A stretch of DNA of 64,000 nucleotides, taken from positions 73,811,291 through 73,875,290 of the forward strand of contig NC_134080.1 in the NCBI RefSeq assembly GCF_000715075.1, read 5' to 3'. Under the pieces are notes generated by a model. It saw only the letters and a list, made by a program, of their open reading frames with translations, did not search any database and was not told the DNA's origin. Origin of the DNA: Nicotiana tabacum (lineage: Eukaryota > Streptophyta > Magnoliopsida > Solanales > Solanaceae). Positions 15,160 through 56,262 of this stretch are shown here, piece by piece (the stretch's first letter is position 1; every line of letters starts with the position of its first letter). The translations under genes and the position numbers were made by a program.

Positions 15160-16482
15160 CTGAACCCAGAATCTCTGGTTCAGGGTTCAGAATTCGAGCT
15201 TAGATAAATTGTTGTATTTGGTTATATCTGATTTTCCTACATGTTTTGTGCTGAATATGCTGAATGTTACCGCTTTGATATCATTTGAACTGTATATAAA
15301 CTGTGCCGACACCCTTCTCTCTTCACCTCCGGGGATGTGCTTACTGGTTGAGACTCCCTATTCTGTTAGTGTCATACCCTGAAATAAAAAGAGGCTCGGA
15401 TAAGTTGCAAAGCCGGACGATCTCGTGGGTCCCCGGTACGCTGCCCCCTCCTCGACTCGAGTTGTACGCTTGAGTGCACTGTTTAGAACACATACCCAGG
15501 TTTTGAACCTAGAATAACTTGACTTCATGCCAGATCTCTAGTAGGAGCGCTTAATTGCATCATGCTGCATTTGACTTAGGGGACTCAACATAGGGGTTGA
15601 ATCCGTCTAGGGCTAGCAACTTGAGATGAAAAGACCATCCTGATGCATCCTACTTGTTCTGTACATATATTTGTTTCAACCAGCATGTTGACCGGCTTTT
15701 GAATCTCGGGAATGTGGGAAAACTGAGAAAAGAGGAAAAGAGAAAAGGAGAGAAATAACAGTTAGGGGGTTAATTGATGACCAAATACTGTCGAAACTCT
15801 GTCGAAATATTGAGAAAATGGAAAAGGAAAATGTTTGTTTTACTAAAAAGCAATGGAAAATTAGAAAAAAGTCTTTTATTTTTGGAAAGTTGTTTGTTGA
15901 AAAAGAAAAGAAAAAGAAACTTTGTTTTAGTTTGGAAAAAATAGGTTGTTTATTGTTTGTTGAAAATGAAAAGAAAAGGAGACTCGTTATTTTGTCTTGT
16001 TTTCAAAAATAGAAAAGGAAAAATAGTTTGTCTTGCCATGGAAAATGAAAAGAAAGAGCCTTGTTTTCAAAATATAGTTAGTTTCTTGGCCCGAACTACG
16101 CATGTTTGATTCTCACAAGGAATGAGATACGTAGGCAACCCTCATCGGGTCCAACCTCCCCTTTGCAAAAATAGCAAAAATATCAAAATTTTAATTTTCG
16201 TCATAAATAAGTTAGGTGATGCCGTTTTTTTTCAAAAAATAGCCAAATGTTCCCGAAAGGGACACCGGAAGGCTGACTTTGCAAAGACGGCCATTTTTGG
16301 TCATTTTGATTTTTGACCGGTTGACTCTCACAGCTTGAAAATCTTTGTTATTGGGAGTGCTGAAAGGCCATGTTCGAAAACCGAGTCTTTCATTTTACAT
16401 TTGAAAAAAAGAAATAGTTAATTTTGTTCTGAGTCAAATAAAAGTTTTGTTTTTGCTTAAATCACTTTAATAAATGTGCAGG
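15160..16482 (+). other. Leader (5' untranslated region) of element A
   Basis: There is no long conserved frame here. The first half contains a block shared with the leaders of B and C: CCGGTACGCTGCCCCC at 15433-15448 followed by CTCGACTCGAG, then a segment around 15580-15660 with ATGCATCCTACTTGTT. The second half (15720-16080) is purine-rich, with degenerate repeats of about 60 bp built from TTGTTTGTTGAAAA and AAAGAAAAG words. A conserved stem-loop lies at 16093-16140. ORF1 starts about 340 bp after it. Confidence 0.7.
16093..16140 (+). ncRNA. Conserved stem-loop, copy A1 (leader)
   Basis: Starts GAACTACG and ends GATACGTAGGCAACC. The outer stem is CTACG (16096-16100) with CGTAG (16130-16134). 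The inner stem is TCTCA (16111-16115) with TGAGA (16123-16127). It is one of nine copies in elements A, B and C. Function is unknown. Confidence 0.7.
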
Positions 16483-18519
16483 ATGAGCACGATGCAAAAC
16501 GAACCTTTCTCAATAATGACTAAAATCCCTTTCGAGTTGCGGCTATGGTGGAATGATTTAGGCAAAGAAGGACAAGACGAAGTCAAGAAATATCTGAAAG
16601 GTCTTACGGGTTTATTGGAAATCAAGCCTCGGGGTGATATTATAAGAGCTTTGGTCACTTGTTGGGACCTGGCGCACAATGTCTTCCACTTCTCAGATTT
16701 TGAGCTCACCCCAACTCTGGAGGAAATCGCCAGGTACATCGGAAATGCTGAGGTTCAGTTAAGAGGAAAATATCTGGTTGCTCCAAGAGCCATCACGGTG
16801 CATCGGTTTTTAGACTCATTAAAGATACCCAGGACAGTCCATAATCCAGATTTGGCAAAAGGCTTCTGCACTCTGCGCTTCATATACGACAGGTACAGCC
16901 ACATGGGAGGGTTTAACAAGACGGACATCAAGCTATGCAGTAAAAATAACCGTCAAATATGGGATGAGCATAGACGGGTGGCTTTCATGATAACCTTTTT
17001 GGGCCTCTTGGTGTTCCCAAGGAAAGACGAGAATATTGATATAAAAGTAGTCGGGGTCGTCAGTACCTTGCTTACTCAAGATGAAAGCACTCTTGCGCCT
17101 ATGATCGTGTCTGACATTTTCCGAGCTCTCACTGCCTGCAAAGCCGGAGGCAATTTTTTTGAGGGGTGTAACTTGTTGCTACAAATGTGGATGACCGAGC
17201 ATCTATGCCGCCGTTCCCAGCTCTTGAGTTATGGTTCGTCTGACAAAACATGTATAGGAGAGTTTTACACAAGGATTGACGGGGTTAGTCTGCCTGAAGG
17301 AGTAACAGCATGGATATCATACTTTCGTACTCTCACGGACAGTCAGATACAATGGACGTTGGGATGGTTGCCTGTTGAAGAAATCATATACATGCCAACA
17401 GCTAGGTCACATTTTCTTTTTATGGGACTTAAGAGCATCCAACCTTATGCTCCATGTCGGGTTCTGAGACAACTCGGGAGATGCCAAACAGTGCCACGGG
17501 AGGAAGATCTTAGTGCTCAAGTAATTGAGATTAGCCCTGACGGACAGTTTCCCGAAGCAAAAGTTCGCGAGATTTGGAATGAATGTCAATATTTACAAGC
17601 AGATACTTGTGTGCAGGATCGGGCCAAAGGAGAAATGTCGCCAGAATACCTCGCGTGGTACAGAAGAGAACTTGAGCATCAGAGGCCAGCTAAAAGACCC
17701 CACATCCAGGATTTCACTGAATCATCACAAGAACAGCGAGGTTGGCTAGCAAAAGAAGAAGGCTATCAGGCTGAAATCGGCAAGCTGAAACAACAGATTG
17801 GAGCTCTGAAATTTGAGAACAGTGTGCAAGTTGCTGCTGATCAGGGAGAAAAGAATAGGTTGGCCCAAGAAAATGAGGCGCTTAGGGCCCAAATCCAGCA
17901 AATGACGATAACTACCAATAACCAACAAAGGAGCCTGTCGGACGAGCGGTTGATAAAGGGGCTGAAAAAGGAAATTAGTGAGTGCCGGGATGAGTTGAAA
18001 AAATCCGAAGGCACCATAGCAGAACTCCGAGCACAGTGGGTAAAAAGAACAGAAGAACGCACCCATTACATGCAACAATTAAAGAAGGATTATGAAAAGA
18101 CCATTGCTAGTCTGGAAAGAAAAATGGTCACCCTTGAGGATAAGGCAGCTAAGCAAGATAAAGCTTTTGAGACCGAAAGTGGACACTGCTATGACTTACT
18201 GGCCCGAATGGAAGTAGAAATACAGCAGCTACAGGATCAGCATCTTCAGGATTCTCATGTGTTGGAGGCTCGCAATAATCAAGTAAGGCGATTGCTTATA
18301 AAAAAGGGTTGAACACGAGACAGGATTAAGACCATTGCCCACGCCATCCTCAGGAGATGTCGGGCATGTGAAGACATGACCCGCACTACCTTCTTTTCGG
18401 TAGTAATGATTTATGTCAAGCGAACCATGTATGAGCTGGAGCAACTTGAAAGGTATTTGGCACCTAAGCCCGCGGCGAGGCCGAACGATGCCCCGCGAGC
18501 ACCCACTTTTGAAGCACTA
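16483..18519 (+). pseudogene. ORF1 of Ogre-like element A, one in-frame stop
   Basis: This extra gene lies upstream of gag, as known for Ogre/Tat elements; its function is unknown. I chose the start at 16483 (MSTMQ) because B has MSTTQ at the same place; an in-frame ATG at 16474 is also possible. The first 380 residues form one domain with WWNDLGKEGQ, SDFELTPTLEEIARYIG, MITFLGLLVFP and LRQLGRCQTVP motifs. It resembles the plant domain called DUF7745 or plant-mobile-domain-like (from memory). Residues of about 410-600 are a Glu/Lys/Gln-rich coiled coil. A TGA at 18310-18312 interrupts it, but the same frame continues with TRDRIKTIAHAILRRC to about 18519, so this looks like a CGA to TGA mutation. 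No nucleic-acid binding motif is seen. Confidence 0.8.
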
Positions 18520-19175
18520 ATGTATTCATATATCGAGTCTGTATTTTCCATTCTAGAGTTTGTCGTTTGTCAGTCTGTTTTATTTTTGCGTCCAAGTATG
18601 CTAGTATGTTCGGAGTTTGTATTTGAGTTTAGTTGGAGTCCGTTATTTTCCATTTCAAAATGTTTAGTTTGTAATAGAATGTTGTGGTAATGAAAATCTG
18701 AAAATTCCCAAAAAATTGTTCCTTTATTTTGGCACTTATTTTCACGAACTACGCCTGGTCTGATTCGTGCGGGGTCACGATACGTAGGCAATCTCCATAG
18801 GATTCAACCATAACCAAATGAAGAGCGAAAGAAAGAAGAAAAACAAGAGAGGATGGAAAAAGAATAAGAAAAGAGAAGAGCGGAAAAACAAGAAAGGAAT
18901 AGAATAAAGGAGAAAAAAGAGAGAAAAGAAAACAAAAAGAAAAGAGAAAGCTTACAGTTGGAACTACGGAAATGCCGGGATGATGCATGCGGTCGAGCAA
19001 ATGCATAATAGAAATGGTTAACTGTATAGATGCATTTATGCCCAATGTGCAGTTATCCAATCTGTTAAAGCCTAATCGCTAATGGAATTGTTGTCTAAAT
19101 GTGTGAGTCCAGGAAGGTGGTTAGTTATTTGGCATTCTGGCAACCCATTCATACAACACCCGGTCTAAAGATAAA
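18520..19175 (+). other. ORF1-gag spacer of element A
   Basis: Non-coding. It contains stem-loop A2 at 18746-18792, then a purine-rich tract (18820-18955) of GAAAAGA-type words, then a short unique stretch before gag. Element B has a spacer with a stem-loop at the same place, which supports a role other than coding. Confidence 0.65.
18746..18792 (+). ncRNA. Conserved stem-loop, copy A2 (before gag)
   Basis: The outer stem is CTACG (18749-18753) with CGTAG (18783-18787). The inner stem is TCGTG (18765-18769) with CACGA (18776-18780), a different but fully paired sequence from copy A1. The flanks GAACTACG, TGATTC and GATACGTAGGCA are kept. Confidence 0.7.
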
Positions 19176-24059: not shown

Positions 24060-27000
24060 TGTCGCACCACCTTTTTACCGCGCCGCGAGGCACGTGGGGA
24101 GTTTTCTCCAATTAAAGGACAGTCGAAACGGGATTTATTTAATTATTTAAGAGTCGCCACCTGGGAATTTTAAGGCGTCCCAAGTCACCAATTTTAATCC
24201 CTGAATCAAGGAGAATATGACTCTGTTTATTATTCTGCGAACCAGAAATCCTGAGTAAGGAATTCTGTTAATCCGGAAGAAGGTGTTAGGCATTTCCGAA
24301 TTCCGTGGTTCTAGCACGGTCTCTTAACTGTTTTTATTATTGGCTTAATTATCTTGATTTTTATTAAATACTTTTTGTTACGTGATTTTTCTACCGCTTT
24401 TACTTACTGTGATTAAAGACCATTCTTTTGAATCGAATTACGCATACGTATATTTGTGTTATAAATTAAAAAGATACGGAATTGTGTCACGCGTACGTGT
24501 ACACAATAACTTTTGATAATATATTTATTAAGCAATCATTTTTCGAGATTGTGTTGAATCAAGAATATTTGTTTTTCTTAAATATTGAACCGCACATCGC
24601 GGGTTTTTATGAAATTAATTTAACGTCCTCGGAGAAATCCTTTAAAATATTCGCTCGAAATTGCGCGTACACATAATCCGAATTTGCTTTTAAATATAAT
24701 CAGGGTACGCGAACGTATTCCTAATTGCGCAAAATACTGTAATGGTATTATGGAATTTCCACAAAATGTTTATTATATCACGAGAAATCTCCATTTAAGA
24801 TACCCTTTAATTCTTGAAAAAGAATCCACAATTTATTAAATGTTGCCCGTCGATTAGAATTTCCGCGTATAATTTATGTTTATCCAAGACTATTCAAATT
24901 CAAAATAAAGAATAAGAACATGATTAATACTATTCTTCACAAATACAACATATATATACATATACCAAAGAATGAGGGACATATGAAACTCACAAAATAA
25001 TTTATGAAGGGAAAAATATTTTTTCAAGAACTTTTATTATTTCTATTTAGTGCAAGTCCTATTTCTAATTGTCGTTGATAAAAATGTTGCAATTTGTATA
25101 TCTCATCTTATTCTCATATACTTGCTTTTAGTCTAATAGGCCTAATTATTTATTTAGGATGGTAAATAGGCATCAAATTGATAATAAAGGGAATTATTGT
25201 ACAAATTGATTAACAACATTGCCTTACATGCCACATATTTGTATGTCTTGAAACATTCGTAGCACTTCAACATCATAATGAGCCATAACAACTCAACTTA
25301 CCATCCACTGATGGTTCTATAGATACCTGCTATCTTATACATGAAAATAATACCAACACCATTTTACCTTATTTAACAATAGATATTACTACTGTAGTTT
25401 TCTTGATACTTCTACATTACTTTCTTACTTAGCTAACAACAAAATTAAATAATGACCAACATTCATGCCATATTCCCTACTTTGACAATTCAAATATAAC
25501 TATACTAATGAGACTTCGAAATGGATAATATTATTACAAACTTTTACGCGAATTTCAAAATAAGATGATTAACTAATAGCCATAGTGTTGAATTCACTAC
25601 TAGTTAACCAACATGAAATAAAACAGAAATTTACACTAAAGGACTTAGATGAGTAAAAAGCAAAATTATAACTCCAAACTTCATTTATTTGCCGTGTTGA
25701 AACTTTTCACAACCTGAGTTTAAAAGGTATGTACCTGGAAATGGAGGTAGAAGAAGTAAATTTCAGCAGTAGCAGCAGAAACAAAATCAGCAGAATATAC
25801 CAATAACACAGCAAGTCTGAACAAGACCCGTTAACCCAGATGAACAGTGACAGAAGCTTGAGGAAAATTTCAGATTTGAGCCGAACAATATTCACAAGCA
25901 AACAACGGACAGATTCTAAAAAGATAACATTTCAGATTTCAGTTTCTTTCCTCTACCCGTTTCAGATTCCTATTTCATATTTCTTTCTTTCTAAATCAGA
26001 TTGTTTCTCCTCTTAAAATCTGATAAGTTCTCCTAAATTCTTAAAATCTGCTTTAAAAATTTGATTTTTTTCCTCTTAAAGTCTGTTTTTAAACTCTCTC
26101 TAAGCTTTCAAAGTCTGTGTGTAAAACTCTCCTAAATCAGTCCCAATCCCCTCTATCTTATACAGGTCTGTCCCCCCTTTTTTAAGTGCTGCCCGGACCC
26201 CCTTTATCTTTTAAAAACAGAATATTTCCATTAAAAATCTGTTTTTCCACTTTAAATCCCATTAGGCTAACTTTTCCCTGATTTTCAGCAGCCCATTACC
26301 CTTTGTTTCCCATTATCACACTAAATAATAGCCATTAACTTTCCACTTCCAGCCCACTACTATTATCACATTACCCTACTGTTTCTATCCCAGAAATACC
26401 CTTGAAAATCCTACTGTAATTACAGTTTTTACTGCCCCAGACCAAAGACTGCCTAAATCTTAACAGGTTTATCTGAATTAAACTGTTTAGCAGCTAAAAA
26501 CCAATTCCTAAATCAAAACAAACATTTTGTCTTTTTAATGATAGCTAATTGATCCCACACCCAATGTCTAATAGCTAATGGACAAAACTAAATTCAGATT
26601 GAACACTGAACTTGTATACAAACGTATTAACAATACACAGAACTTAACAGAACAAAAATCTGAATTGAAATTGAATTTAGCATAAGTGCAGGGGCATGGT
26701 CAGTATATTGACACTTCCTGAAACTTAATACTAAGAAATCAACAACATTTTATTGAATTTCAAACAAAGCTGATTTAATTAACGAGTATTAGTCAAACTG
26801 ATTATTTACAACAATTGTCGACAAACAACTGATAAACAGATTATTTCAAACAGCATTTTCAGAAACAGAATTCTATAATATAACTAATCGACGGACTTAA
26901 TCGAGTCGATTAGACACATTGTAATAATCACAACCAACAGAAACAATTCACATTCGAATCAAGTAGATAGGTAGGAGGCAGAATCACGGAATTAAACAAA

Positions 27001-27140
27001 TAAAAAAAATTAAACAGACAACTAAAATAGGCAACAACATATGTAGGAAACAAAAGAAAAATAGGAAAATACCTCTGAATCTTCAATTTCATACGGACTC
27101 GAACTTGACTTTGAATTCGGACCTTTTTTGAAATCAAACA

Positions 27141-27186
27141 GACCTTAGTCGAAGTATTTTCAACTGAAAATACTTCGACTAAGGTC
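27141..27186. repeat. Perfect 22-bp inverted repeat in B LTR
   Basis: The arms 27141-27162 and 27165-27186 are perfect reverse complements with a 2-bp spacer (AC). The other LTR has the same structure at 45330-45375. On the element strand it lies about 570 bp downstream of the TATA box, so it would be in the transcribed leader and in the LTR-spanning RNA. Confidence 0.9.
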
Positions 27187-27506
27187 GATTAGACCCCAAT
27201 CTTCTATTTAACTCAGGCAAATTCCATGTTTTGAAATTTTTAGGGTTTTCTGATTCTTGGATCCTAAATTCGAACACTTCTAGGCAGATTCGAAGGGAAC
27301 CAAAGATGACACAAGGGTGAGGGAGGCCTAGGGGTCGTTTGGTGTTAGTTTGGAAAGAATCTGAGTGAGTTCAGATTTGATTCGAACCTTCAAAAGAAGA
27401 TTCGAAGAGTTCTGAGGCGATTCGAACCAAACCAACACCAGATCCACAACGAGGGTAGTTAGGGGAAGCCATGGTGTTAATTTGGGGCTGGTTGGTTTAG
27501 ATCTAA

Positions 27507-27564
27507 GTTTGGCTCGAATCTTCAAATGAAGATTCGAGAACCTTCAGGAAGATTCGAGCCAAAC
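27507..27564. repeat. Overlapping hairpins in B LTR
   Basis: Long arms 27507-27523 and 27548-27564 (17 bp) are exact reverse complements. A competing pair 27513-27524 and 27527-27538 (12 bp, 2-bp spacer) shares the left arm. Both are built on the word GATTCGAG. The structure is repeated at 45696-45753. More GATTCGAA words lie at 27285-27430. Confidence 0.8.
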
Positions 27565-27757
27565 GGCTAACATATTCGGATAGAGGAGGTTCAGGGGGTT
27601 CTAGGGTGTTATTTTGGTAACCGGCAGCGTTGATGCCGCCGGGTTTCAGGCGGTGGGATCCAAGGGCGGCTAGGGTTAGGAGTGGGGGTTTGGGGGACGA
27701 TGATGAACAGTGTAGGAGGGGGGGTGCTTAGTTTGGGGCCGGGGTAGGGCTTGGGAC

Positions 27758-27764
27758 TTATATA
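27758..27764 (-). promoter_or_regulatory. TATA box of B 3' LTR
   Basis: The minus strand reads CCCCTATATAAGTCCC. It is preceded by GACGTC-containing repeats and followed by a C-rich leader. The copy at 45945-45951, in the 5' LTR, would drive B. Confidence 0.7.
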
Positions 27765-27785
27765 GGGGTGGGGTGGATTGATATT

Positions 27786-28054
27786 GTCCGTCCGATCAAG
27801 TAAGATGAAGGGCCAGGATCAATCCACTTATCAAAACGACATCGTTTGATTTAAGTTGGGGAAAGGGTCAACCCGGGGTTGAAATGGATCGGGTTTGAGT
27901 GAGTTTTTTAAGACCGTGGGATCAAAATGGATGAACGGTTCAGATCTAGTTGCCCTAAACGTCGTCGTTTTATTTATGCAAGGGCTGAACTGGACCGTTT
28001 GATTGCAATGAATCAACGGCTCAGATTTGAAGTACCTCATGCGACGTCGTTTAG
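27786..28054 (-). promoter_or_regulatory. Three GACGTC-type enhancer-like repeats in B U3
   Basis: Three degenerate units of about 80 bp each pair a GATCAA/GGATGAACGG segment with an AAACGACGTCGTTT-like word: 27833-27850, 27957-27970 and 28041-28052. They lie within 300 bp upstream of the TATA box. The corresponding words in the 5' LTR are at 46019-46036, 46144-46160 and 46230-46241. ACGT cores are typical bZIP sites; activity is inference. Confidence 0.5.
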
Positions 28055-28534
28055 TCTTGTTCGAATTGGACCGGACAGGGGGATGTTGGATTGGGCTGTG
28101 GGATTCATTTCGTTTGGGCCTGGATTTTAATCCAGGTCCGATTTTCATATTCTAACTTATATTTTTATTTTATTATTAATTAATAAAATCCTAATAAAAA
28201 ATTATAAAAACAAAATTATCATTACAATAATACTAATTATCTTTTAATAACCATTAACACGTAGATAAAACATTGACACATTTAAAAATAGAACGAATGC
28301 ATATTTTTTGTGATTTTATTTAAATTATCTTTCAAATTCATAATTAAATCCTATATGCATGCAACATGTATTTTATTTTAATTTTCATTTCATTATGACG
28401 AAGTAAGCATTTATGAACATAACACAAATATTTAACACCACGCAAATTCAAAAATTACACAGTAAAAGAAATTTATTTTATTTTTTGATTTATTTTGGAG
28501 TAGTTTTTTGTAAGGCAAAAATCACGTGCTCACA

Positions 28535-28547: not shown

Positions 28548-28671
28548 GTGCGGAAACTCGAAGAGTTTTCGTGCAAAGATAAAGTGAGCGGATACGAGCG
28601 ATTTTTGCCCGTTCGAATACTCCGTGGGAAGCATTTTTAGAAATATTTGACCAAACCTCTGCTTCAAAGGT

Positions 28672-28717
28672 TTCCTACATATCCTTGGCTATAAAGGAAT
28701 CAGGTCAATGTAGTTCG
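28672..28717 (-). ncRNA. Conserved stem-loop, copy B3 (before PPT)
   Basis: The outer arms CTACAT (28675-28680) and ATGTAG (28708-28713) are fully paired. The inner arms TCCTT (28682-28686) and AAGGA (28694-28698) are fully paired. Relative to other copies the outer stem has G to A matched by C to T on the opposite arm. Confidence 0.7.
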
Positions 28718-29095
28718 GGAATTTTGGGTAGCTGAGACTACCGTGGGACTGTGATGTTACTGCTGCTTTGTGCTGTTTTTACTGCTTGCTGACCTCCTTA
28801 TTACACCTTACTTCAAAGGTAATACAAAAAATTAAACTAGATTATGGTACAGGAATTATAAAAATCTTATCTAGATCATGCCCTTGCGTTTCTTGTTGTC
28901 TTGATATCTTGGTGACTCTTGGGCATTTGGCTTATTCCGTATTCCCTTTCATTGTGTCCCGTATTTTCTTTTGGAACTCTTGTTGTTTCTTGCTGGGGAT
29001 TCTGTTGGACTCCTCTGCTTTATTGATTCTAAGTGTGATCCTTTTTCATATGAGCGGGCTTTTGATTTCAACACTTCAATTTCATTCCCTCGTTC

Positions 29096-31275: not shown

Positions 31276-31540
31276 TGTTTGTACCAGAGTATTATGAACC
31301 ATCTTCATTTGGTTGACTCAGCATTTTTCTAAGATTGGTCGAAAGGTCTTTCTGGTATGGGGTTAGAAATGGAAAAGGTATTAAAAGCTAAACAGTTTTG
31401 GTATGTGTTTAAAATTACAACTCTTGGAATCTTTTTCTTATTTCCAATACAATTCTTGCCCCAGTTCCTTGATTGGGGTCGCTTGATGTTTCTTTTTGTG
31501 CACATTATGTATATTGTGCACCCTATGACCGAGCCGTGAG

Positions 31541-31584
31541 GCGCCTACGTATCCTTCTTTGAGGAATCAGGTCAAATGTAGTTC
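31541..31584 (-). ncRNA. Conserved stem-loop, copy B2 (after integrase)
   Basis: The outer arms CTAC (31545-31548) and GTAG (31578-31581) pair, and the inner arms TCCT (31552-31555) and AGGA (31562-31565) pair. This is the weakest inner stem of the set, with four pairs and a mismatch at the fifth on the RNA strand. Confidence 0.6.
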
Positions 31585-31772
31585 ACTAAATAATAGTGAT
31601 GTTTTTTTTTAATTATTTCATACTTGATTTTTTTTATTGATTCCAAGAGAGGGTAGGAAAGAAACAAGTATGGCTCAAAGGGGAAGCAAATGGTATAGTG
31701 TTTGGATAGCAGAATGAATTGCCTTTGTCATTCCAATCTTCGAAATAATGCTAAATACAAACACTCAAAAAG

Positions 31773-32957: not shown

Positions 32958-32960
32958 ATC

Positions 32961-39402: not shown

Positions 39403-40035
39403 TCATTGTGGGGCTTGACCTGGATGGCCTCCCAGCGTACGATACATCCTTTCCAACTCCATTGCTAGATGACGAGCAAAAGTGGGCGCATGCTCTGTAA
39501 ACCTTTCATAATCCATTCCTTGGCAGTTTACATAACTTTGAGATGTGAAGATTGCCAGGTCGTGGATTTGTGCCCTGAAACCTTGGAGACGTTGGTCTTG
39601 GTCTTGCAATTGCTGCTGACGAGTGGTGGCTATATCTCTGACACGGTTTTCACGATCTAGAGCTGATTCTAACGGGGCTCGGAGTCTGGCCTGCTCTAAT
39701 CTTGCTTGCAATCTTTCCCTGTCGAGGTCTGCTTGTTGATGTTCTCTGTTGCATCTTCTTGCCTCTTCTAGTTGTGCACGAAGCTGGTCTTCTGATCGCA
39801 TCCAATAGTCTTTTTCCTTCTTGAATTGTGCCTTGTCTTTTTCGGATTGCCTATCTTGGTGTTCCTTGTTAGATCTGGCTTCTTCATTTAATTGTTGGAT
39901 CCTTTCTTTTGCTTTGCTCAATGCCTTTTCGTTTTCCGCAAGAATGGAATCATAATCTTGCATTCTTTCAAAGAGATTGGCGATGGTTTTTTGATCCTTC
40001 CAGCTCCTCTTTGGCGTTTCAGAAACTCTTTTCAT
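39403..40035 (-). pseudogene. ORF1 of element B, coiled-coil part after frameshift
   Basis: 210 residues, mostly a Glu/Gln/Arg-rich coiled coil (for example LSKAKERIQQLNEEARSNKE), ending with a compact segment FARHLAMELERMYRTLGG like the end of ORF1 in A. It overlaps the end of the upstream piece by an ATGA, in a different frame. Because A has one continuous ORF1 across this point, a small indel next to an A-run at about 40035 is the simplest reading. Two separate proteins cannot be excluded. Confidence 0.7.
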
Positions 40036-41507
40036 TTTTGGAATCGAGCATAAAGATTTTCATTCTCACAAGCTAGACTCTTCTTCTCGCCTTCGGCTTC
40101 TTGTGCTTGTAAATCTTTTTCCAAACTGAGGCTTCTCAGATTTTCTTTTAGGGCATGGATAGTTGCTTTGTACCCTTTTTCTTTTTCTCCCCAGATCAAC
40201 CGCTCTTGGATTTTATCATTGAAGTTTTGAACATGGGGTCTTTTTGTTGGCCTTTTTAGCTCAGGTTCTGGTACATCATCCACGCGAGACCGTTTTTCGA
40301 ACCACCTTGCATATCCAGGATTTATCTCACCCTTTGTAGCGTCTAGGACTTGAGTATCGCTTTTCAAGTATCGAGACCCATTCCACATCTGCTGAAGTAG
40401 AGCTTCGGGAATAGTGGCTTCTGGGTGTAATTCGATTACTTGCATACTCAAATCTTCATCATCAGGAACTATTTGATATCTCCCTAGTTGCCTTAGGACT
40501 CTTAGTGGTGCATACGGCTGAATGCTTCTCAATCCCAATAGTAGTAGATAACTATTTGAGGTTGACATATGTATTACTTCCCTCATCGGGAGCCATCCCA
40601 GGGTCCATTCAATTTGATTTGCCGTTAAAGCCTTTAGATGAGATACCCATGCTTCTATCCCTTCTGGAACCTGATAATTTTTTGTTCTTTCCTCATAGCT
40701 TTCGATGCAATTATCATTGTTTGACCCATACTGTATGATCTTGGGCTGTTGTTGGAGATGTTCAATCACCCATATTTGCAACAAAATTTTGCATCCTTCG
40801 AAGACTTTTGCTCCTGATTTGCATAAAGTCAGAGCCCGATAAATATCTGATAGAATGATGGGGACAAGGGTGTGATTTTCTTTAGTGGTGAGGATTTGCA
40901 CAACTTTTGCGGTGCGAATATCAATTGTTCGCTCTTTATTTGGGAAGACCATGACTCCTAGAAAAGCCACCATGAAAGCAAATCGACGGTGCATCTGCCA
41001 AGTGTATTTGTTTTGCTTATTAGTAAGGCCTTTCTCATGAATTTCGAACCCATCTGACTTTCCGAACCTTGAATACAAAAAGTTGAAGGAACAACATCCA
41101 TTGATGACATTGCTTTTCCTGATTTGACTGCTGATGTTCAGAAGACCGAAGAATCGATGTACCGAAGGAGCCTTTGTGAATATCAAGCTTTGATTTCTTA
41201 GACTTCCGTCAAAACCAGCATATCCAGCTATCTCCTCTAATGTAGGAGTAAGCTCGAAGTCAGAGAAACGAAAAACATTGTGAGCAGGGTCCCAAAAAGT
41301 TACTAACGCCGCAATCAGATCATCACGGGGTTTAACTTTCATAATGTCCGTGAGATTTCCCAAATGCTTGACGACCCATTTTTGACCGTCTTCGCCTAAA
41401 TCATACCACCACATTTGAAGCTGACATAGAAATTCTTCCGTACTTGTGGATGAGGGGCTTTGTGTGGTGCTCATTTTGTATCTGAATTTTAATTTTGATA
41501 AAGTCAA
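40032..41507 (-). CDS. ORF1 of element B, N-terminal domain
   Basis: 491 residues; the likely start is the second Met, MSTTQ at 41474, by agreement with A. Shared motifs with A: WWYDLGEDGQ, FRFSDFELTPTLEEIAGYAG, FMVAFLGVMVFP, WVSHLKALTANQIEWTLGWL, SIQPYAPLRVLRQLGRYQIV and the basic segment KRPTKRPHVQNF. The last part begins the coiled coil and stops at 40032. This resembles the plant domain called DUF7745 (from memory) that precedes gag in Ogre-like elements. Its role in the element is not known. Conservation between A and B at the protein level suggests past selection. Confidence 0.85.
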   Translation of the reverse strand: MTLSKLKFRYKMSTTQSPSSTSTEEFLCQLQMWWYDLGEDGQKWVVKHLGNLTDIMKVKPRDDLIAALVTFWDPAHNVFRFSDFELTPTLEEIAGYAGFDGSLRNQSLIFTKAPSVHRFFGLLNISSQIRKSNVINGCCSFNFLYSRFGKSDGFEIHEKGLTNKQNKYTWQMHRRFAFMVAFLGVMVFPNKERTIDIRTAKVVQILTTKENHTLVPIILSDIYRALTLCKSGAKVFEGCKILLQIWVIEHLQQQPKIIQYGSNNDNCIESYEERTKNYQVPEGIEAWVSHLKALTANQIEWTLGWLPMREVIHMSTSNSYLLLLGLRSIQPYAPLRVLRQLGRYQIVPDDEDLSMQVIELHPEATIPEALLQQMWNGSRYLKSDTQVLDATKGEINPGYARWFEKRSRVDDVPEPELKRPTKRPHVQNFNDKIQERLIWGEKEKGYKATIHALKENLRSLSLEKDLQAQEAEGEKKSLACENENLYARFQK

Positions 41508-42228
41508 AATTCATTTTGAAACTTTATACTAGAAATAAAATCATTTTCGAAATTTTTTTTTATTTATTAAATACCTTTATTTCAAAATTTAAAACTATTT
41601 TTTTTTTCGAATTTTTTTTAAAACAACCCATTTTATTCCTTTCTTCTTACCATGATTTTATTTAAGCTGGTCAACAAGCATGTTCGAGGCAAATGAATGC
41701 ACAAGTAACAAGTAGGATGCATCATGATGGTCTTTTTATTTTGGGTTCACCTGTCCTAGACAGACCCAACCCCTGTGTTGAGTCTCCAAGGCCAAATGTG
41801 TATGATGCAAATAGACGTTCCTACTAGGGATCCGGTACATGGCTGAGTTATTCTAAGTGTAAAACCTTAGGTTGATTGTTCTAAATCTGGCTTACCCAAA
41901 CGGACAGTTTGAGCCGAAGCGGGGGCAACGTACCGGGAGCACGAAAGTCTGCCAGGCCTAGTTACTTGTTCCAACTCCATCTTATTTGGTATGACTTTAA
42001 TAGAAAGGTGGGTCACGCGCACGTGTACACCATAAATTCAGAAGACTCAGAAAGAAGGGGGTTTCGTAGCAGTTGTATATATTCACAATTCAAATAATAT
42101 TAAAGCGGTAAAATTTTTTAGCATATTAGCATATAAACAGTTAAAAATCATATAGTAAATAAAGCCAATTAACACAGATATTTTAAGCTCGAATTCTTTA
42201 AACCCTGAACCAGAGATTCTGAGTTCGT
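41508..42228 (-). other. Leader of element B
   Basis: Shorter than the leaders of A and C. It keeps the shared block (CCCGGTACGTTGCCCCC on the minus strand at about 41920-41937) and the GGATGCATCATGATGGTC segment near 41715. It lacks the leader stem-loop present in A and C. A T-rich/A-rich run lies just upstream of ORF1 (41550-41640). Confidence 0.65.
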
Positions 42229-42246: not shown

Positions 42247-42250
42247 GAGC

Positions 42251-45200
42251 TGTCGCACCACATTTTTACCGCGCCGCGAGGCACGTGGGGAGTTTTCTCC
42301 AATTAAAGGACAGTCTAAACGGGATTTATTTAATTATTTAAGAGTCGCCACCTGGGAATTTTAAGGCGTCCCAAGTCACCAATTTTAATCCCTGAATCAA
42401 GGAGAATATGACTCTGTTTATTATTCTGCGAACCAGAAATCATGAGTAAGGAATTCTGTTAATCCGGAAGAAGGTGTTAGGCATTTCCAAATTCCGTGGT
42501 TCTAGCACGGTCGCTTAACTGTTTTTATTATTGGCTTAATTATCTTGATTTTTATTAAATACTTTTTGTTACGTGATTTTTCTACCGCTTTTACTTATTG
42601 TGATTAAAGACCGTTCTTTTGAATCGAATTATGCGTACGTATATTCGTGTTATAAATTAAAAAGATGCGGAATTGTGTCACGCGTACGTGTACACAATAA
42701 CTTTTGATAATATATTTATTAAGCAATCATTTTTCGAGATTGTGTTGAATCAAGAATATTTGTTTTTCTTAAATATTTAACCGCACATCGCGGGTTTTTA
42801 TGAAATTAATTTAACGTCCTCGGAGAAATACTTTAAAATATTCGCTCGAAATTGCGCGTACGCATAATCCGAATTTGCTTTTAAATATAATCAGGGTACG
42901 CGAACGTATTCCTAATTGCGCAAAATACTGTAATGGTATTATAGAATTTCCACAAAATGTTTATTATATCACGAGAAATCTCCATTTAAGATACCCTTTA
43001 ATTCTTGAAAAAGAATCCACAATTTATTAAATGTTGCTCGTCGATTAGAATTTCCGCGTATAATTTATGTTTATCCAAGACTATTCAAATTCAAAATAAA
43101 GAATAAGAACATGATTAATACTATTCTTCACAAATACAACATATATATACATATACCAAAGAATGAGGGACATATGAAACTCACAAAATAATTTATGAAG
43201 GGAAGAATATTTTTTCAAGAACTTTTATTATTTCTATTTAGTGCAAGTCCTATTTCTAATTGTCGTTGATAAAAATGTTGCAATTTGTATATCTCATCTT
43301 ATTCTCATATACTTGCTTTTAGTCTAATAGGCCTAATTATTTATTTAGGATGGTAAATAGGCATCAAATTGATAATAAAGGGAATTATTGTACAAATTGA
43401 TTAACAACATTGCCTTACATGCCACATATTTGTATGTCTTGAAACATTCGTAGCACTTCAACATCATAATGAGCCATAACAACTCAACTTACCATCCACT
43501 GATGGTTCTATAGATACCTGCTATCTTATACATAAAAATAATACCAACACCATTTTACCTTATTTAACAATAGATATTACTACTGTAGTTTTCTTGATAC
43601 TTCTACATTACTTTCTTACTTAGCTAACAACAAAATTAAATAATGACCAACATTCATGCCATATTCCCTACTTTGACAATTCAAATATAACTATACTAAT
43701 GAGACTTCGAAATGGATAATATTATTACAAACTTTTACGCGAATTTCAAAATAAGATGATTAACTAATAGCCATAGTGTTGAATTCACTACTAGTTAACC
43801 AACATGAAATAAAACAGAAATTTACACTAAAGGACTTAGATGAGTAAAAAGCAAAATTATAACTCCAAACTTCATTTATTTGCCGTGTTGAAGCTTTTCG
43901 CAACCTGAGTTTAAAAGGTATGTACCTGGAAATGGAGGTAGAAGAAGTAAATTTCAGCAGTAGCAGCAGTAACAAAATCAGCAGAATATACCAATAACAC
44001 AGCAAGTCTGAACAAGACCCGTTAACCCAGATGAACAGTGACAGAAGCTTGAGGAAAATTTCAGATTTGAGCCGAACAATATTCACAAGCAAACAACGGA
44101 CAGATTCTAGAAAGATAACATTTCAGATTTCAGTTTCTTTCCTCTACCCGTTTCAGATTCCTATTTCATATTTCTTTCTTTCTAAATCAGATTGTTTCTC
44201 CTCTTAAAATCTGATAAGTTCTCCTAAATTCTTAAAATCTGCTTTCAAATCTGATTTTTTTTCCTCTTAAAGTCTGTTTTTAAACTCTCTCTAAGCTCTC
44301 AAAGTCTGTGTGTAAAACTCTCCTAAATCAGTCCCAATCCCCTCTATCTTATACAGGTCTGTCCCCCCTTTTTAAGTGCTGCCCGGACCCCCTTTATCTT
44401 TTAAAAACAGAAAATTTCCATTAAAAATCTGTTTTTTCACTTTAAATCCCATTAGGCTAACTTTTCCCTGATTTTCAGCAGCCCATTACCCTTTGTTTCC
44501 CATTATCACACTAAATAATAGCCATTAACTTTCCACTTTCAGCCCACTACTATTATCACATTACCCTACTGTTTCTATCCCAGAAATACCCTTGAAAATC
44601 CTACTGTAATTACAGTTTTTACTGCCCCAGACTAAAGACTGCCTAAATCTTAACAGGTTTATCTGAATTAAACTGTTTAGCAGCTAAAAACCAATTCCTA
44701 AATCAAACAAACATTTTGTCTTTTTAATGATAGCTAATTGATCCCACACCCAATGTCTAATAGCTAATGGACAAAACTAAATTCAGATTGAACACTGAAC
44801 TTGTATACAAACGTATTAACAATACACAGAACTTAACAGAACAAAAATCTGAATTGAAATTGAATTTAGCATAAGTGCAGGGGCATGGTCAGTATATTGA
44901 CACTGCCTGAAACTTAATACTAAGAAATCAACAGCATTTTATTGAATTTCAAACAAAGCTGATTTAATTAACGAGTATTAGTCAAACTGATTATTTACAA
45001 CAATTGTCGACAAACAACTGATAAACAGATTATTTCAAACAACATTTTCAGAAACAGAATTCTATAATATAACTAATCGACGGACTTAATCGAGTCGATT
45101 AGACACATTGTAAGTAATCACAACCAACAGAAACAATTCACATTCGGATCAAGTAGATAGGTAGGAGGCAGAATCACGGAATTAAACAAATAAAAAAATT

Positions 45201-46721
45201 AAACAGACAACTAAAATAGGCAACAACATATGTAGGAAACAAAAGAAAATAGGAAAATACCTCTGAATCTTCAATTTCATACGGACTCGAACTTGACTTT
45301 GAATTCGGACCTTTTTTTGAAATCAAACAGACCTTAGTCGAAGTATTTTCAACTGAAAATACTTCGACTAAGGTCGATTAGACCCCAATCTTCTATTTAA
45401 CTCAGGCAAATTCCATGTTTTGAAATTTTTAGGGTTTTCTGATTCTTGGATCCTAAATTCGAACACTTCTAGGCAGATTCGAAGGGAACCAAAGATGACA
45501 CAAGGGTGAGGGAGGCCTAGGGGTCGTTTGGTGTTAGTTTGGAAAGAATCTGAGTGAGTTCAGATTTGATTCGAACCTTCAAAAGAAGATTCGAAGAGTT
45601 CTGAGGCGATTCGAACCAAACCAACACCAGATCCACAACGAGGGTAGTTAGGGGAAGCCATGGTGTTAATTTGGGGCTGGTTGGTTTAGATCTAAGTTTG
45701 GCTCGAATCTTCAAATGAAGATTCGAGAACCTTTAGGAAGATTCGAGCCAAACGGCTAACATATTCGGATAGAGGAGGTTCAGGGGGTTCTAGGGTGTTA
45801 TTTTGGTGACCGGCGGCGTTGATGCCGCCGGGTTTCAGGCGGTGGGATCCAAGGGAGGCTAGGGTTAGGAGTGGGGGTTTGGGGGACGATGATGAACAGT
45901 GTAGGAGGGGGTGCTTAGTTTGGGGCCGGGGTAGGGCTTGGGACTTATATAGCGGTGGGGTGGATTGATATTGTCCGTCCGATCAAGTAAGATGAAGGGC
46001 CAGGATCAATCCACTTATCAAAACGACATTGTTTGATTTAAGTTGGGGAAAGGGTCAACCCGGGCTTGAAATGGATCGGGTTTGAGTGAGTTTTTTAAGA
46101 CCGTGGGATCAAAATGGATGAACGGTTCAGATCTAGTTGCCCTAAACGTCGTCGTTTTATTTATGCAAGGGTTGAACTGGACCGTTTGATTGCAATGAAT
46201 CAACGGCTCAGATTTGAAGTACCTCATGCGACGTCGTTTAGTCTTGTTCGAATTGGACCAGACAGGGGGATGTTGGATTGGGCTGTGAGATTCATTTCGT
46301 TTGGGCCTGGATTTTAATCCAGGTCCGATTTTCATATTCTAACTTATATTTTTATTTTATTATTAATTAATAAAATCCTAATCAAAAATTATAAAAACAA
46401 AATTATCATTACAATAATACTAATTATCTTTTAATAACTATTAACACGTAGATAAAACATTGACACATTTAAAAATAGAACGAATGCATATTTTTTGTGA
46501 TTTTATTTAAATTATCTTTCAAATGCATAATTAAATCCTATATGCATGCAACATGTATTTTATTTTAATTTTCATTTCATTATGACGAAGTAAGCATTTA
46601 TGAACATAACACAAATATTTAACACCACGCAAATTTAAAAATTACACAGTAAAAGAAATTTATTTTATTTTTTGATTTATTTTGGAGTAGTTTTTCGTAA
46701 GGCAAAAATCACGTGCTCACA
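42251..46721 (-). repeat. 5' LTR of Ogre-like element B
   Basis: Copy of 24060-28534. On the element strand it begins TGTGAGCACGTGA at 46721 and ends at 42251 next to the PBS. TATA box at 45945-45951 (TATATAA), GACGTC-type repeats at 46019-46241, inverted repeat at 45330-45375, second hairpin pair at 45696-45753. This copy would drive transcription of B. Confidence 0.95.
45945..45951 (-). promoter_or_regulatory. TATA box of element B 5' LTR
   Basis: The minus strand reads CGCTATATAAGTCC. It is preceded by the three GACGTC-type repeats and followed by a C-rich transcribed leader. This is the promoter expected to produce B genomic RNA. Confidence 0.7.
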
Positions 46722-48193: not shown

Positions 48194-48206
48194 GTTGCTC
48201 CTCTTT
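48194..48206 (-). other. Polypurine tract of element C
   Basis: The minus strand reads AAAGAGGAGCAAC immediately before the 3' LTR, one base different from B. Confidence 0.8.
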
Positions 48207-48327
48207 GACTGAAAATAAGAAGTATTTTAGACGAAGAACGACGAGACATGTTTTTTGACCCGACCCTTATTTAAAGAGACCAAAAACTAAAAGAAATGAG
48301 AATGTAACCGAGCCCTGGTATCTGAGA

Positions 48328-48374
48328 TGCCTACATATCCTTGTCTATAAAGGAATCATGCCACATGTAGTTCA
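48328..48374 (-). ncRNA. Conserved stem-loop, copy C4 (before PPT)
   Basis: The outer arms CTACAT (48331-48336) and ATGTAG (48365-48370) pair, and the inner arms TCCTT (48338-48342) and AAGGA (48350-48354) pair; both are perfect. Closest in sequence to B3, which stands at the same place in B. Confidence 0.7.
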
Positions 48375-48884
48375 AAAGTAGGAACAGTGATGGATTATAC
48401 TGAGGTGGAGAGCCGGTCGAGGTGCCATTCCGTCTTGGTTCCGGTTCGTTGTCCTGTTATTACATCAAAAATCAAAAAATAAAAAATACTAACTAAGGCT
48501 GTCAACTACGAGTTACAAGATTCCTATTTATAAATCTTCTGAAGCTTGATCTTGAGTCTTGAATGGTTCTTCATGCAGACTTTAGATTTGAACCTTGGCG
48601 CTTGTTAGCTGTAGGTGCTAGCTCATTCTTCTTCATCTTTTCGGATCAAGACCGGGCATGTAGAGCTTGTGACTTCAACCATGTCTTGAGTTGTTCACAT
48701 CTTTCATCTGCTTCTGCATTTGGATTCACTTCCCTCTTTGTTTTCCTTTCTTTCTTTTTTCTTGGATTGATACTTCTTCTTCGGTCATCTCAAACCCCTG
48801 TGCCTTGAGATAAAACCCTTATTCTTCAAACAACTCGTTCTATCTCCGATTTGAAACTTGAAATGAATTCTGAAATGACTTCTC

Positions 48885-49465: not shown

Positions 49466-49589
49466 CCTGCCATTACAACAATACAGACAAAACAACAGAA
49501 ATGTTTCTTCCCCAGTTTGGTATCTGGGCACATCTGTGAGTGTTAATCGAATCATGTTACCTAAAAGAGCTCTAAGAATTTAAAAGCTA

Positions 49590-50975: not shown

Positions 50976-51316
50976 CTCTGATTCTGCAGATGACAAGGCA
51001 TTAACTATGGTAAAAACATCATATACTCTTAGCATGTCTAAACTCAGCACCCTCAAAGATTATCTGGGAGGTCTTTTTGGACTGTAATGTGGCTTTTGGA
51101 CAGGGTTAGAAAGAAAGGATGTCATAAAGATCCAAAATAACTAAGATAACATGGTTAATTTATTTACAACTTTTAGAATCCACTTCAAAACTTTGCCCCA
51201 ATTTCTAAAACAAGAGAACTTGATTCTGTTTTTTTATGGAGTTACTAAGAAAGACTACCCCACTCTCGACTTTGTGGGATTATGAAATATTTTATTTGTA
51301 TGACCGAACCGTAAGG

Positions 51317-51363
51317 CTGCCTACGTATCTTGTGGTGACAAGAATCAGGTCAAACGTAGTTCA
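51317..51363 (-). ncRNA. Conserved stem-loop, copy C3 (after integrase relic)
   Basis: The outer arms CTACGT (51321-51326) and ACGTAG (51354-51359) give six pairs. The inner arms TCTTG (51328-51332) and CAAGA (51339-51343) give five. This is the best-paired copy of the nine. Confidence 0.75.
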
Positions 51364-51649
51364 CACGACTACTTTTTGTTGCTATTTTCTTTTATTTTCT
51401 TTTTCTTTTTCCTTTTTTTTTTATTTTTTTCTCTTTTTTTTTGGAATGAACTTTCTAAAATAAACTTATGTGGACATGAACTTTTTTTTTGTATGACTCT
51501 AACTTGATTCCAAAAGAGGGGAAGTCAAAGAAATCCGTACAAGCTCAAAAGGGTACCAAATGGTATAAAGTGTTTAGATAGCTGAAAGAGGGCACCAATC
51601 TCTAAGAATACCAAGTATAACACATGCAACTTGAGAATAAAAAAGAAGA

Positions 51650-54150: not shown

Positions 54151-54482
54151 AATGAGGTCATCAAGTTAGCGTTAGGGCATTTAACAACTAAAAATATCAC
54201 ACTGCGTGCAATGCACCTAGCAACAATTAACGGTTCAAGAAAGACTTCGAGGGTCACAAGGTCACTTGGCATCATCCCAATTTGTCCGTTTGAATCTTCT
54301 CTTTTTTCTTCTTTTCTAGCACTGCTTGGTTTTTTATTTCCTTTCTCCTTTTTTCTTTTGCTTATCGCTTTCTTTCCTCTTATTTCTCACATCTCATAAT
54401 TTCATCTCCTTTTGTTTTTCTTTTTTTTTCTTTCTTTTTTTCCTTTTTCTTTTAATAAAAAAATTCGATCGAACCCTATGTA

Positions 54483-54533
54483 GGTTGCCTACATATCATG
54501 ATACCGCATGAATCAGATCTTTGCATAGTTCGG
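54483..54533 (-). ncRNA. Conserved stem-loop, copy C2 (before gag)
   Basis: The inner arms TCATG (54496-54500) and CATGA (54507-54511) pair perfectly. The outer arms (CTACAT at 54489-54494 and the GCATAG region at 54523-54528) keep three pairs plus a G-T pair on the RNA strand. Confidence 0.6.
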
Positions 54534-55694: not shown

Positions 55695-56140
55695 CATGCA
55701 AGACATGATTGAGGCTATTTTTGCAAAACGGCTTGTGTGGCCAAAAGGTGGCTAGAAGTGCAAACACGACAAAAGTGACCTCTAAGACATGGAAAAATTA
55801 CTTTGCCAAAATAACTCATTTTATAGAAATGGTCTATGTGGACAAAAATGGCTAAGCATGGAAATTCAACACAACGGACCATAAAAAGAGAGAACATTTT
55901 GTTGTGGACTTAGAACTCTAAAACATGGGCTAATTGAACTACTTTTGCAAAAATGATCCCATTTTGCAAGAACGACCGATGTGCCAAAAACGGCTAGATA
56001 TGCAAATTCGACAAGGACAGACCTTTAAGTAAAGAGACACCTAATTGTGGATTGAAGACTCTCCAGACACAATTAAACAAACAACTTTGCAAAAATAGCC
56101 ATATTTTGCAAAATGACCGATGTGGCCAAAAGTGGCAAGA
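55695..56140 (-). repeat. Four degenerate repeats in C leader
   Basis: Units start near 55720, 55820, 55960 and 56100. Each contains TTTTGCAAAA or a similar word, then a GACCGATGTGGCCAAAAGTGGC-like segment (varied in each copy), then CATGCAAATTCGACA-like sequence. Spacing is 100-140 bp. No coding potential. Confidence 0.55.
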
Positions 56141-56210
56141 CACAAGATTTGGCTACGACCTCAAAGCCAATAACCTAAGACTCACTAAGAAGAGGAGGAA
56201 GACCCTACGT

Positions 56211-56262
56211 GGGTTGCCTACATATCCCGCCCCGAGAGACGAGAATCAGGTTTGCATAATTC
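56211..56262 (-). ncRNA. Conserved stem-loop, copy C1 (leader)
   Basis: The inner arms at 56225-56229 and 56240-56244 read TCTCG and CGGGA on the RNA strand, pairing at all five positions with one G-U. The outer stem is decayed (TTATG against ATGTAG). The GATATGTAGGCAACC side is well kept. Confidence 0.6.

Follow-up and report, generated by a model that had tools for sequence, protein, structure and literature searches.

Three Ogre-like retrotransposons in a 64,000-nt stretch of the Nicotiana tabacum genome (the window, on whose numbering all positions are given) carry nine copies of a short segment that an earlier note had read as a covarying stem-loop, and the locus raises the question of what is folded here, in which nucleic acid and to what end. 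All nine copies were found again, and a window-wide covariance-model scan with filters off returned them at E ≤ 2.6e-12, the next best match standing at E = 1, with a model whose training set includes the same nine copies. The blocks said to be shared by all proved to be conserved to different degrees: TGATTC is exact in nine of nine copies, but GAACTAC in seven (in the numbering of the note, C1 reads GAATTAT and C2 GAACTAT) and GATACGTAGGCA in four (A1, A2, B1 and C3), the others differing by one or two changes. At up to one mismatch, the core word is matched eight times in the window against 0.06 expected, and two core words occur 58,277 and 20,023 times exactly in the 4.0-Gb genome against 68 and 70 for the reversed words; together with the scan, these counts rule out chance or low complexity. 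None of the 4227 families of Rfam 15 matched the window at its gathering threshold, and ARAGORN reported no tRNA in it. When loci L017, L022, L013, L004 and L120 were searched in E-value mode, the only Rfam matches overlapping motif copies were sub-threshold ones to SurA (15.8 bits of a 100-bit threshold, E 4.3), wcaG (11.7 of 42 bits, E 4.6) and ZNRD1-AS1_1 (9.5 of 50 bits, E 9.2), which we read as chance. The pattern was matched four times in viral collections and 15 times in prokaryote ones; those four and 14 of the 15 had no GAACTAC-like 5' half and went unmatched by the model at E values up to 10, and three further viral scans gave neither a copy nor a relative.

The hosts are Ogre/Tat elements of the Ty3-gypsy group, as the earlier note had supposed. 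Such elements are defined by an extra ORF1 5' of gag, a Ty3-type gag-pol, a second RNase H and long LTRs, all of which are present here, with ORF1 carrying the plant mobile domain (PMD)/DUF7745 and with gag, aspartic protease, reverse transcriptase (RT), RNase H, second RNase H and integrase recognisable. Element A, on the forward strand, has its ORF1 (DUF7745/plant mobile domain) at 16474..18309 (Pfam PF24924, 1.1e-22; PF10536, 5.9e-21). Element B, on the reverse strand, lies between a 5' LTR at 42251..46721 and a 3' LTR at 24060..28534, both about 4.47 kb long and 98.7% identical, and comprises ORF1 with the same domain (40035..41510; PF24924, 1.1e-30), gag (36631..39003; PF03732, 4.1e-8), a protease region with a G-patch domain (35511..36716; PF01585, 7.5e-5; PF13650, 0.0059), RT, RNase H and the second RNase H-type domain (32964..35315; PF00078, PF17919, PF13456) and integrase (31776..32960; PF00665, 4.7e-10; PF17921). 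Its gag contains a zinc-knuckle-like CX2CX5HX4C motif, for which Pfam gave no zinc-knuckle match. Element C, likewise on the reverse strand, retains a gag remnant, and no pol homology was found in it.

Within these elements the copies occupy fixed, non-coding positions, so defined that S1 precedes ORF1, S2 lies between ORF1 and gag, S3 follows integrase and S4 stands about 109 nt before the 3' LTR; an element RNA usually has three or four of them. In element A, S1 (16091..16162, forward strand; covariance model R1, 72.2 bits) lies 312 nt 5' of the ORF1 ATG, and S2 (18744..18815, forward; 74.9 bits) lies 432 nt past the first in-frame stop beyond ORF1 homology and 310 nt ahead of gag homology. 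Element B has, on the reverse strand, S2 in the ORF1-gag gap (39166..39234; 70.0 bits), S3 187 nt past the integrase stop (31521..31586; 49.5 bits) and S4 (28643..28718; 65.9 bits), about 109 nt ahead of the LTR edge at 28534. In element C, again on the reverse strand, S1 lies in the 5' leader (56190..56264; 46.6 bits), S2 and S3 flank the gag remnant on its 5' and 3' sides (54461..54533, 70.0 bits; 51296..51364, 68.1 bits), and S4 (48300..48375; 65.7 bits) is about 109 nt ahead of a 3' LTR start placed at 48191, the end of the alignment. Over the larger set, S1 lies 76-498 nt 5' of the ORF1 ATG (6 elements), S2 163-310 nt ahead of gag homology (10 elements with ORF1 and gag) and 153-305 nt past the ORF1 stop in 8 of 10 (432 in element A and 798 in element B of the window), and S3 29-380 nt past the integrase stop (7 elements). 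By hand tally, S2 is present in 10/10 and S3 in 7/7 elements with the junction in view; S1 is absent from two of the eight with a visible ORF1 start, namely window element B and L006. The site classes are old: the nearest neighbour of a copy in another element occupied the same site for all 51 labelled copies.

The unit itself is larger than the approximately 48-nt stem-loop first described. Both stems of that description exist, the outer as helix P1 and the inner as P2, but the whole is an RNA of about 66-73 nt with four helices, the two overlooked being a downstream 3' hairpin, P3, and P4, in which the 4-6 nt immediately 5' of TGATTC pair with those following P3; P4 crosses P1, making the fold a pseudoknot. 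From 5' to 3' the order is P1a (CUACGY-like), P4a (4-6 nt), UGAU, the P2 hairpin, U, P1b (AYGUAG), GC, the P3 hairpin, C and P4b. The unpaired bases are strongly kept among 58 copies (GAA in 53, 58 and 56; UGAU in 56, 57, 57 and 58; GC in 57 and 56; the linker C in 52). The P1a-P4a linker measures 1-3 nt in all 108 copies in which it could be measured among 129, and the other linkers, taken from the alignment, are 1 nt between P2 and P1b, 2 nt between P1b and P3 and about 1 nt ahead of P4b; one copy with no recognisable TGATTC (L059) was left out of the alignments. P1 has 5-6 bp, its sixth pair being non-standard in 36/58 copies, and is nearly palindromic, with a half-site spacing that varies with loop length. 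Three of the four core pairs of P4 are present in A-S1, A-S2 and C-S4, and one of four in C-S1, where the helix is degenerate. Folding-energy z-scores of the nine window copies, computed for nested folds only, are weak (-2.12 to +1.50). The four helices would presumably form at once.

Support for this structure comes from a structure-blind covariation test of all column pairs against a tree-based null. With 129 copies only four pairs reached E < 0.05, and these fall in P3, P2, P4 and P2; at helix level, both P2 and P4 had P < 1/200, and P3 had P = 0.005. P2, P3 and P4 therefore covary, and the earlier claim of selection on structure with compensatory change, for which an R-scape analysis had been proposed, is supported for these helices by our R-scape-like test. 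In the set of 58 sequences the best single P4 pair was not significant (E = 2.9), though the helix as a whole was (P = 0.043). The inner-stem pairings given for each window copy were correct, and over 58 copies P2 changes on both sides at three of five pairs, one of the others changing on one side only and one being invariant. The covariation claimed for the outer stem comes down to one column pair (G-C 35, A-U 13, G-U 5, other 5 among 58 copies), and support for P1 is conservation, partly ascertained. P4 shows changes on both sides at 5/5 column pairs; by parsimony its four core pairs went from pair to non-pair 2.0, 4.0, 3.0 and 7.0 times and from pair to pair 5.0, 4.3, 7.0 and 3.9 times, and these many breaks could be explained by decay of dead copies. 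Of all cells, 87.8% are paired; shuffling gives 76.9%, and sliding the structure 18.7-41.3%. Two of the five structure measures are not clearly above column shuffles: pairs with both-side changes (13 vs. 10.8, with 34 of 500 shuffles reaching 13 or more) and pair types (36 vs. 35.5; 257 of 500). As to the strand, ten core pairs were chosen in P2, P3 and P4 outside the helix parts used for finding copies, and at these G-U is seen 45 times and A-C 16 times; when the weak pairs are counted too, giving all 21 that are drawn, the two are level (80 vs. 83). The excess at the core pairs suggests that the structure acts as sense RNA, towards which the original alternative of RNA or single-stranded DNA thus leans; a G-U excess in P1 was discarded because the exact word by which most copies were found spans P1b.

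The motif is also retained where coding capacity is not. No ORF1 or pol homology was found in the family L007/L008/L012, and none of the sense ATG ORFs between S1 and S3 of L008 and L012 exceeds 85 aa, yet S1-S3 are kept. Judged by sequence identity, the motif is conserved in these derivatives, being 95% identical (484/508) without the 12-nt search word, against 77% (3148/4107) for the ±250-nt flanks and 86% (2363/2745) for flanks aligning at ≥80%. A gag-only family (L017/L022) keeps S1, S1b, S2 and S3. Retention in pol-less derivatives is what a packaging signal calls for, and such elements would be mobilised in trans. The expectation that the motif is confined to Tat elements is not strictly true, because one full copy, L120, has no recognisable Tat element around it: on a probably contaminant plant contig of genome G001, it follows the stop of a hAT transposase by 52 nt. 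In 59 genomes searched around G001 with strict filters the copy occurs in G001 only, and the ssb of the contig aligns with no more than the C-terminal half of the SSB profile; these two observations rule out a bacterial origin and make a chimera with dietary plant DNA likely. Nor is hAT a general carrier: 20 hAT 3' ends, taken from 119 scored matches in the window's own genome, held no copy (best E 0.51).

We tentatively propose, with a probability of about 0.4, that the folds act in cis as a signal by which element RNA is recognised or packaged. Each copy would fold into a compact pseudoknot within the sense RNA of an Ogre/Tat element, and the set would be a repeated address label. An element-encoded RNA-binding protein, be it Gag with its zinc-knuckle-like motif, the ORF1 protein or the G-patch protein, may read the fold by contacting the conserved unpaired GAA, UGAU, GC and C that it presents, and element RNA, including that of trans-mobilised derivatives, would thereby be selected for assembly and reverse transcription, packaging being the step presumably served. 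Against packaging stand the absence of S1 from the two elements named above and the hAT-adjoining copy, where packaging makes no sense; classical retroviral packaging signals, moreover, form one region near the 5' end, unlike the four spread sites here. A broader proposition, possible if on balance doubtful, is that an undescribed pseudoknotted RNA family punctuates Ogre/Tat polycistronic RNA at gene borders and can travel with other mobile elements (hAT, beside L120), as a general plant transposon module that is read by host or element proteins and sets transposon RNA apart for a fate of its own. To our knowledge, it is largely unanswered for Tat/Ogre elements how RNA is selected, how translation is kept apart from packaging and how one transcript serves several cistrons; a covarying fold at fixed sites, kept in derivatives without ORF1 or pol, offers a testable RNA handle on these questions, and the covariance model should find Tat-related and non-autonomous elements that have no coding sequence.

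The main rival, unlikely in our view but not far-fetched, is a host-read module of mRNA fate, which like a viral exonuclease-resistant RNA (xrRNA) would stop a 5'-3' exonuclease, or decay, or scanning ribosomes, where cistrons meet and protect or create shorter RNAs starting at S1-S4. Plant-virus xrRNAs (xrRNA_D; coremin/xrRNA_C) are described as short sense pseudoknot or two-hairpin elements of intergenic regions and 3' UTRs in plant RNA genomes (PMC6299227, PMC10520033), in which they resemble the present motif, and the coremin type is described as stalling scanning ribosomes too (PMC10520033). The short distances of S2 and S3 from the ORF1 and integrase stops, and of L120 from the hAT stop, fit this module. 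The present motif, however, sits in an LTR retrotransposon, matches no Rfam family at threshold, is kept in derivatives without long ORFs and is missing from the 20 hAT 3' ends; compared by eye with published structures and with the descriptions of coremin in PMC10520033, its topology seems to differ, the pseudoknot partner preceding the inner hairpin here and not lying in its loop, and helix order and conserved bases likewise seem to differ from those of xrRNA_D. Internal initiation or reinitiation for a downstream cistron, an idea akin to the translation restart once guessed at, would suit the positions of S1 before ORF1 and S2 before gag, and the dicistrovirus IGR-IRES, reported as a triple pseudoknot (PMC12221177), is likewise pseudoknotted; it is improbable, because elements without long ORFs, L008 and L012 among them, keep the sites and because S3 and S4, unlike S1 and S2, precede no element ORF, and the distances are variable. 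A self-cleaving ribozyme of the HDV-like, nested double-pseudoknot kind, cutting the transcript at cistron borders, has the same helix order (P1a, P2a, P3, P1b, P4, P2b) and likewise a conserved C ahead of the final strand, here in 52/58 copies. HDV-like ribozymes, however, have a multi-nucleotide J4/2 with the catalytic C, a 7-bp P1 and nothing conserved 5' of P1; the motif has about 1 nt in place of J4/2, a P1 of 5-6 bp and, 5' of it, GAA among its most conserved bases. Nor did Rfam give an HDV family match, and cleavage would destroy the genomic RNA; we regard this as very improbable.

Two further readings concern the fold itself. P1 and P4 may be alternatives, and a bistable switch would then have two conformers with P2 and P3 in common. 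Covariation does not separate simultaneous from alternative helices, and the minimum-energy fold of L120 is a P4 three-way junction without P1, that of window A-S1 the P1 form; the short, near-constant linkers nevertheless fit a compact pseudoknot, and we consider a switch quite unlikely. A DNA-level feature, such as a palindromic protein site or cruciform, or similarity that is inherited but under no structural constraint, could draw on the near-palindrome of P1, the relatedness of all copies in the window's genome and the level G-U and A-C counts over 21 pairs. It is scarcely credible given that half-site spacing changes with loop length, that compensation in P2, P3 and P4 exceeds a tree-based null and that G-U outnumbers A-C at the core pairs.

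Among other known systems, the packaging and transport elements psi, CTE and MTE of retroviruses and retrotransposons are likewise cis-acting structured RNAs in untranslated parts, the MTE being described as including a pseudoknot (PMC12786077); the present motif differs in that the same fold recurs at as many as four or five sites per element, in site-specific lineages that are anciently separate. Sireviruses, of the Ty1/copia group, show similarly strong non-coding conservation in otherwise diverged plant LTR retrotransposons, in the form of PPT copies, an attachment site, an inverted repeat and palindromic LTR boxes, which as far as described have no covarying RNA fold (PMC2829016). Retrozymes, described as plant non-autonomous retrotransposons with hammerhead ribozymes (PMC4918200), also carry a small structured RNA, of a different fold.

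The nine copies described in an earlier note as covarying stem-loops lie in the window where it had placed them. Run without filters over the full 64 kb, a covariance model whose training set included these nine recovered them, with a tenth match at E = 1. In the 4.0-Gb genome, GATACGTAGGCA occurs 58,277 times vs. 68 for its reversed word, and GATATGTAGGCA 20,023 times vs. 70. Side-by-side reading of the copies revealed two helices absent from the first account, which comprised the outer (P1) and inner (P2) stems. P3 is a second hairpin 3' of GATAYGTAGGC and is followed downstream by a conserved C (52 of 58 copies). In P4, a short segment after this C complements the bases immediately 5' of TGATTC (for example GGTC/GACC, GACC/GGTC, GACT/AGTC, GGTT/AACC and GATC/GATC). 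P4 crosses P1, so the motif would be a pseudoknot, provided that all helices form together. The 4-bp core of P4 is complete in 46 of the 58 copies; eight others have three of the pairs, and four have fewer. Among the window's nine it is complete in five, has three pairs in three and a single pair in copy C1, the copy in the 5' leader of element C.

Covariation was assessed on 130 copies (129 distinct) taken from the window plus 102 retrieved stretches, leaving out the L059 copy, which has no TGATTC-like half; a reduced set held 58 representatives less than 92% identical. The stretches outside the window all lie within a single 5-Mb section of contig C1 (a label unrelated to copy C1), most having been picked by an exact word spanning P1b, the last two P2b bases and the first P3a base, and 20 via a GATATG word instead. 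When all pairs of a structure-free MAFFT alignment of the 129 copies were scored by an R-scape-like G-test with APC against 300 tree-based substitution nulls, four reached E<0.05, located in P3 (E = 0), P2 (0), P4 (0.003) and P2 (0.01); the covariation reported earlier for the inner stem is thus significant. In the helix-level test, P2 and P4 exceeded all 200 null maxima and P3 gave P = 0.005; the list of 14 helices did not include P1. With the 58 representatives, the four highest-ranking of 2,415 pairs again fell in P2, P3, P2 and P4 (E = 0.025, 0.025, 0.20 and 2.9), with helix P values of <1/300 for P2, 0.047 for P3 and 0.043 for P4.

Further, 87.8% of 1,214 cells are paired in the named structure vs. 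76.9% in column shuffles and 18.7–41.3% in slid structures. Both the cells with changes on both sides (188 vs. 62.7) and the covariation score (0.436 vs. 0.233) were above all 500 shuffles, while the counts of column pairs changing on both sides (13 vs. 10.8) and of pair types (36 vs. 35.5) were not clearly above them. Both-side changes occur at all five column pairs of P4. The outer stem had also been said to covary, and it does so at one of its six column pairs, the other five showing no both-side change; support for P1 is mainly conservation. Parsimony on the 129-copy tree, with events summed over the listed pairs, gave pair-to-pair vs. pair-to-nonpair changes of about 20 vs. 10 in P1, 20 vs. 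10 in P2, 28 vs. 12 in P3 and 20 vs. 16 in P4, and the helix breaks may be explained by decay of dead copies.

The earlier note had left the choice between RNA and single-stranded DNA structure open. Ten core pairs that belong to P2, P3 and P4 and are not covered by the search word hold 45 G-U cells vs. 16 A-C, an excess that depends on omitting P1, which is ascertained, and the weak outer pairs. A G-U in the sense strand would be A-C on the other, so that pairing in sense RNA is favoured at these core pairs, as a tendency and not a probability because cells share ancestry. G-U and A-C are level (80 and 83) when all 21 drawn pairs are included, and the 16 pairs of the model, counted within the matches it made, give 48 and 64. 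Most of the A-C cells belong to two positions, pair six of P1 and pair one of P3, that probably do not pair at all.

Scanning 270 kb with the covariance model yielded 57 matches at E≤1; two of them are noise (E = 0.27 and 0.46) and one, in L016, is truncated at the stretch end. Coding homology lies on the same strand within the stretch for 46 of the 54 matches with tabulated context; the remaining eight (in L008, L012, L016 and L018) are in stretches without coding homology on either strand. Four sites are occupied: S1, 76–498 nt upstream of the ORF1 ATG (6 elements); S2, past the in-frame stop of ORF1 by 153–305 nt in 8 elements, by 432 nt in element A and by 798 nt in element B of the window; S3, 29–380 nt past the integrase stop (7 elements); and S4, about 109 nt upstream of the 3' LTR in B and C alike. 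In a tally compiled by hand of elements whose junction is visible, S1 is occupied in 6/8 (missing from B and L006), S2 in 10/10, S3 in 7/7 and S4 in 2/2. An element entered the S3 count if either the site or 400 nt of sequence downstream could be seen; integrase ends lying at a stretch edge (L007, L011) or truncated (element A of the window) were excluded. A gag-only family carries two S1-type copies, S1 and S1b, about 0.7–0.8 kb apart (L017, 3183–4071; L022, 2547–3323), from which there may be up to five sites per element.

Site labels, assigned from where a copy lies in its element or from its rank among the copies there, cover 51 of 55 true matches, with the additional 5' site in L017 and L022 treated as S1. 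Copies at the same site of different elements are 75.4% alike vs. 57.1% for different sites of one element, and the nearest neighbour in another element occupied the same site for 51 of 51 labelled copies; the sites are thus old and have been maintained separately. L007, L008 and L012 form one family in which no ORF1 or pol homology was found, L007 having a gag remnant and a 228-aa ORF. Without the 12-nt search word, their motifs are 95.3% identical (484/508) vs. 76.7% (3148/4107) for the ±250-nt flanks and 86.1% (2363/2745) for flanks aligning at 80% or more; with the word included, the values are 596/628 vs. 2920/3790, in a comparison of three elements whose Fisher value ignores relatedness.

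A role limited to translating ORF1 or gag-pol is disfavoured, as it leaves S3, S4 and the family without long ORFs unexplained. A signal needed by the element RNA itself, for selection, assembly, transport or survival, would account for them. Since elements that lack pol would have to be mobilised in trans, we prefer to read the motif as a recognition signal for packaging of element RNA, at a probability of roughly 0.4. The alternative of an Xrn-resistant or mRNA-fate module, which we rank below packaging and regard as rather unlikely, is supported by the location of sites near stops and between cistrons and by a copy beside a hAT transposase. This full copy (L120:7809–7902 and L123:510–603, minus strand; 39.3 bits, E = 1.1e-9) lies outside Tat elements, to which the motif had been expected to be confined. 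It begins 52 nt past the stop of the plant-type hAT transposase and has helices P4 GGCCUU/AAGGCC, P2 UCCUC/GAGGA and P3 CUUAAUU/AAUUAAG. Its host is a 9.9-kb contig labelled as a Bacilli MAG from roe-deer jejunum, with half an ssb gene on the bacterial side (its match to the SSB profile is confined to the C-terminal half); since the motif was also absent from the other 58 of 59 genomes searched, the contig is likely a chimera with dietary plant DNA. No motif was found at 20 hAT 3' ends of the window's genome (20 of 119 scored matches), making the hAT association an isolated case. The motif resembles HDV-like ribozymes in helix order only. No description of it appeared among the papers listed by full-text searches of open PMC literature, a scope outside which older Ogre papers fall, and the letters GATACGTAGGCA and TACGTAGGCAG were found nowhere in that text; we provisionally consider it new to the literature.

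The window's elements are Ogre/Tat-like, with ORF1 (DUF7745/plant mobile domain), gag, protease with G-patch, reverse transcriptase (RT), RNase H, a second RNase H-type domain and integrase; in element C, gag was the sole coding homology found. The G-patch domain lies in the protease region at 35511–36716 (minus strand; Pfam 7.5e-5), an arrangement known from betaretroviruses. Element B, whose 4.47-kb LTRs are 98.7% identical, interrupts element A. Within the nest (9800–59301), the RT region of A contains B, and two pieces resembling the 5' LTR of C (9800–11313 and 47938–48191) lie on either side of the A/B block. Between S3 and S4, B and C carry tandem arrays (29048–30511 and 48829–49957) with units of about 41/42, 48 and 39 nt. 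Both B LTRs contain a 60-nt palindrome (27134–27193 and 45323–45382) with arms 87% complementary.
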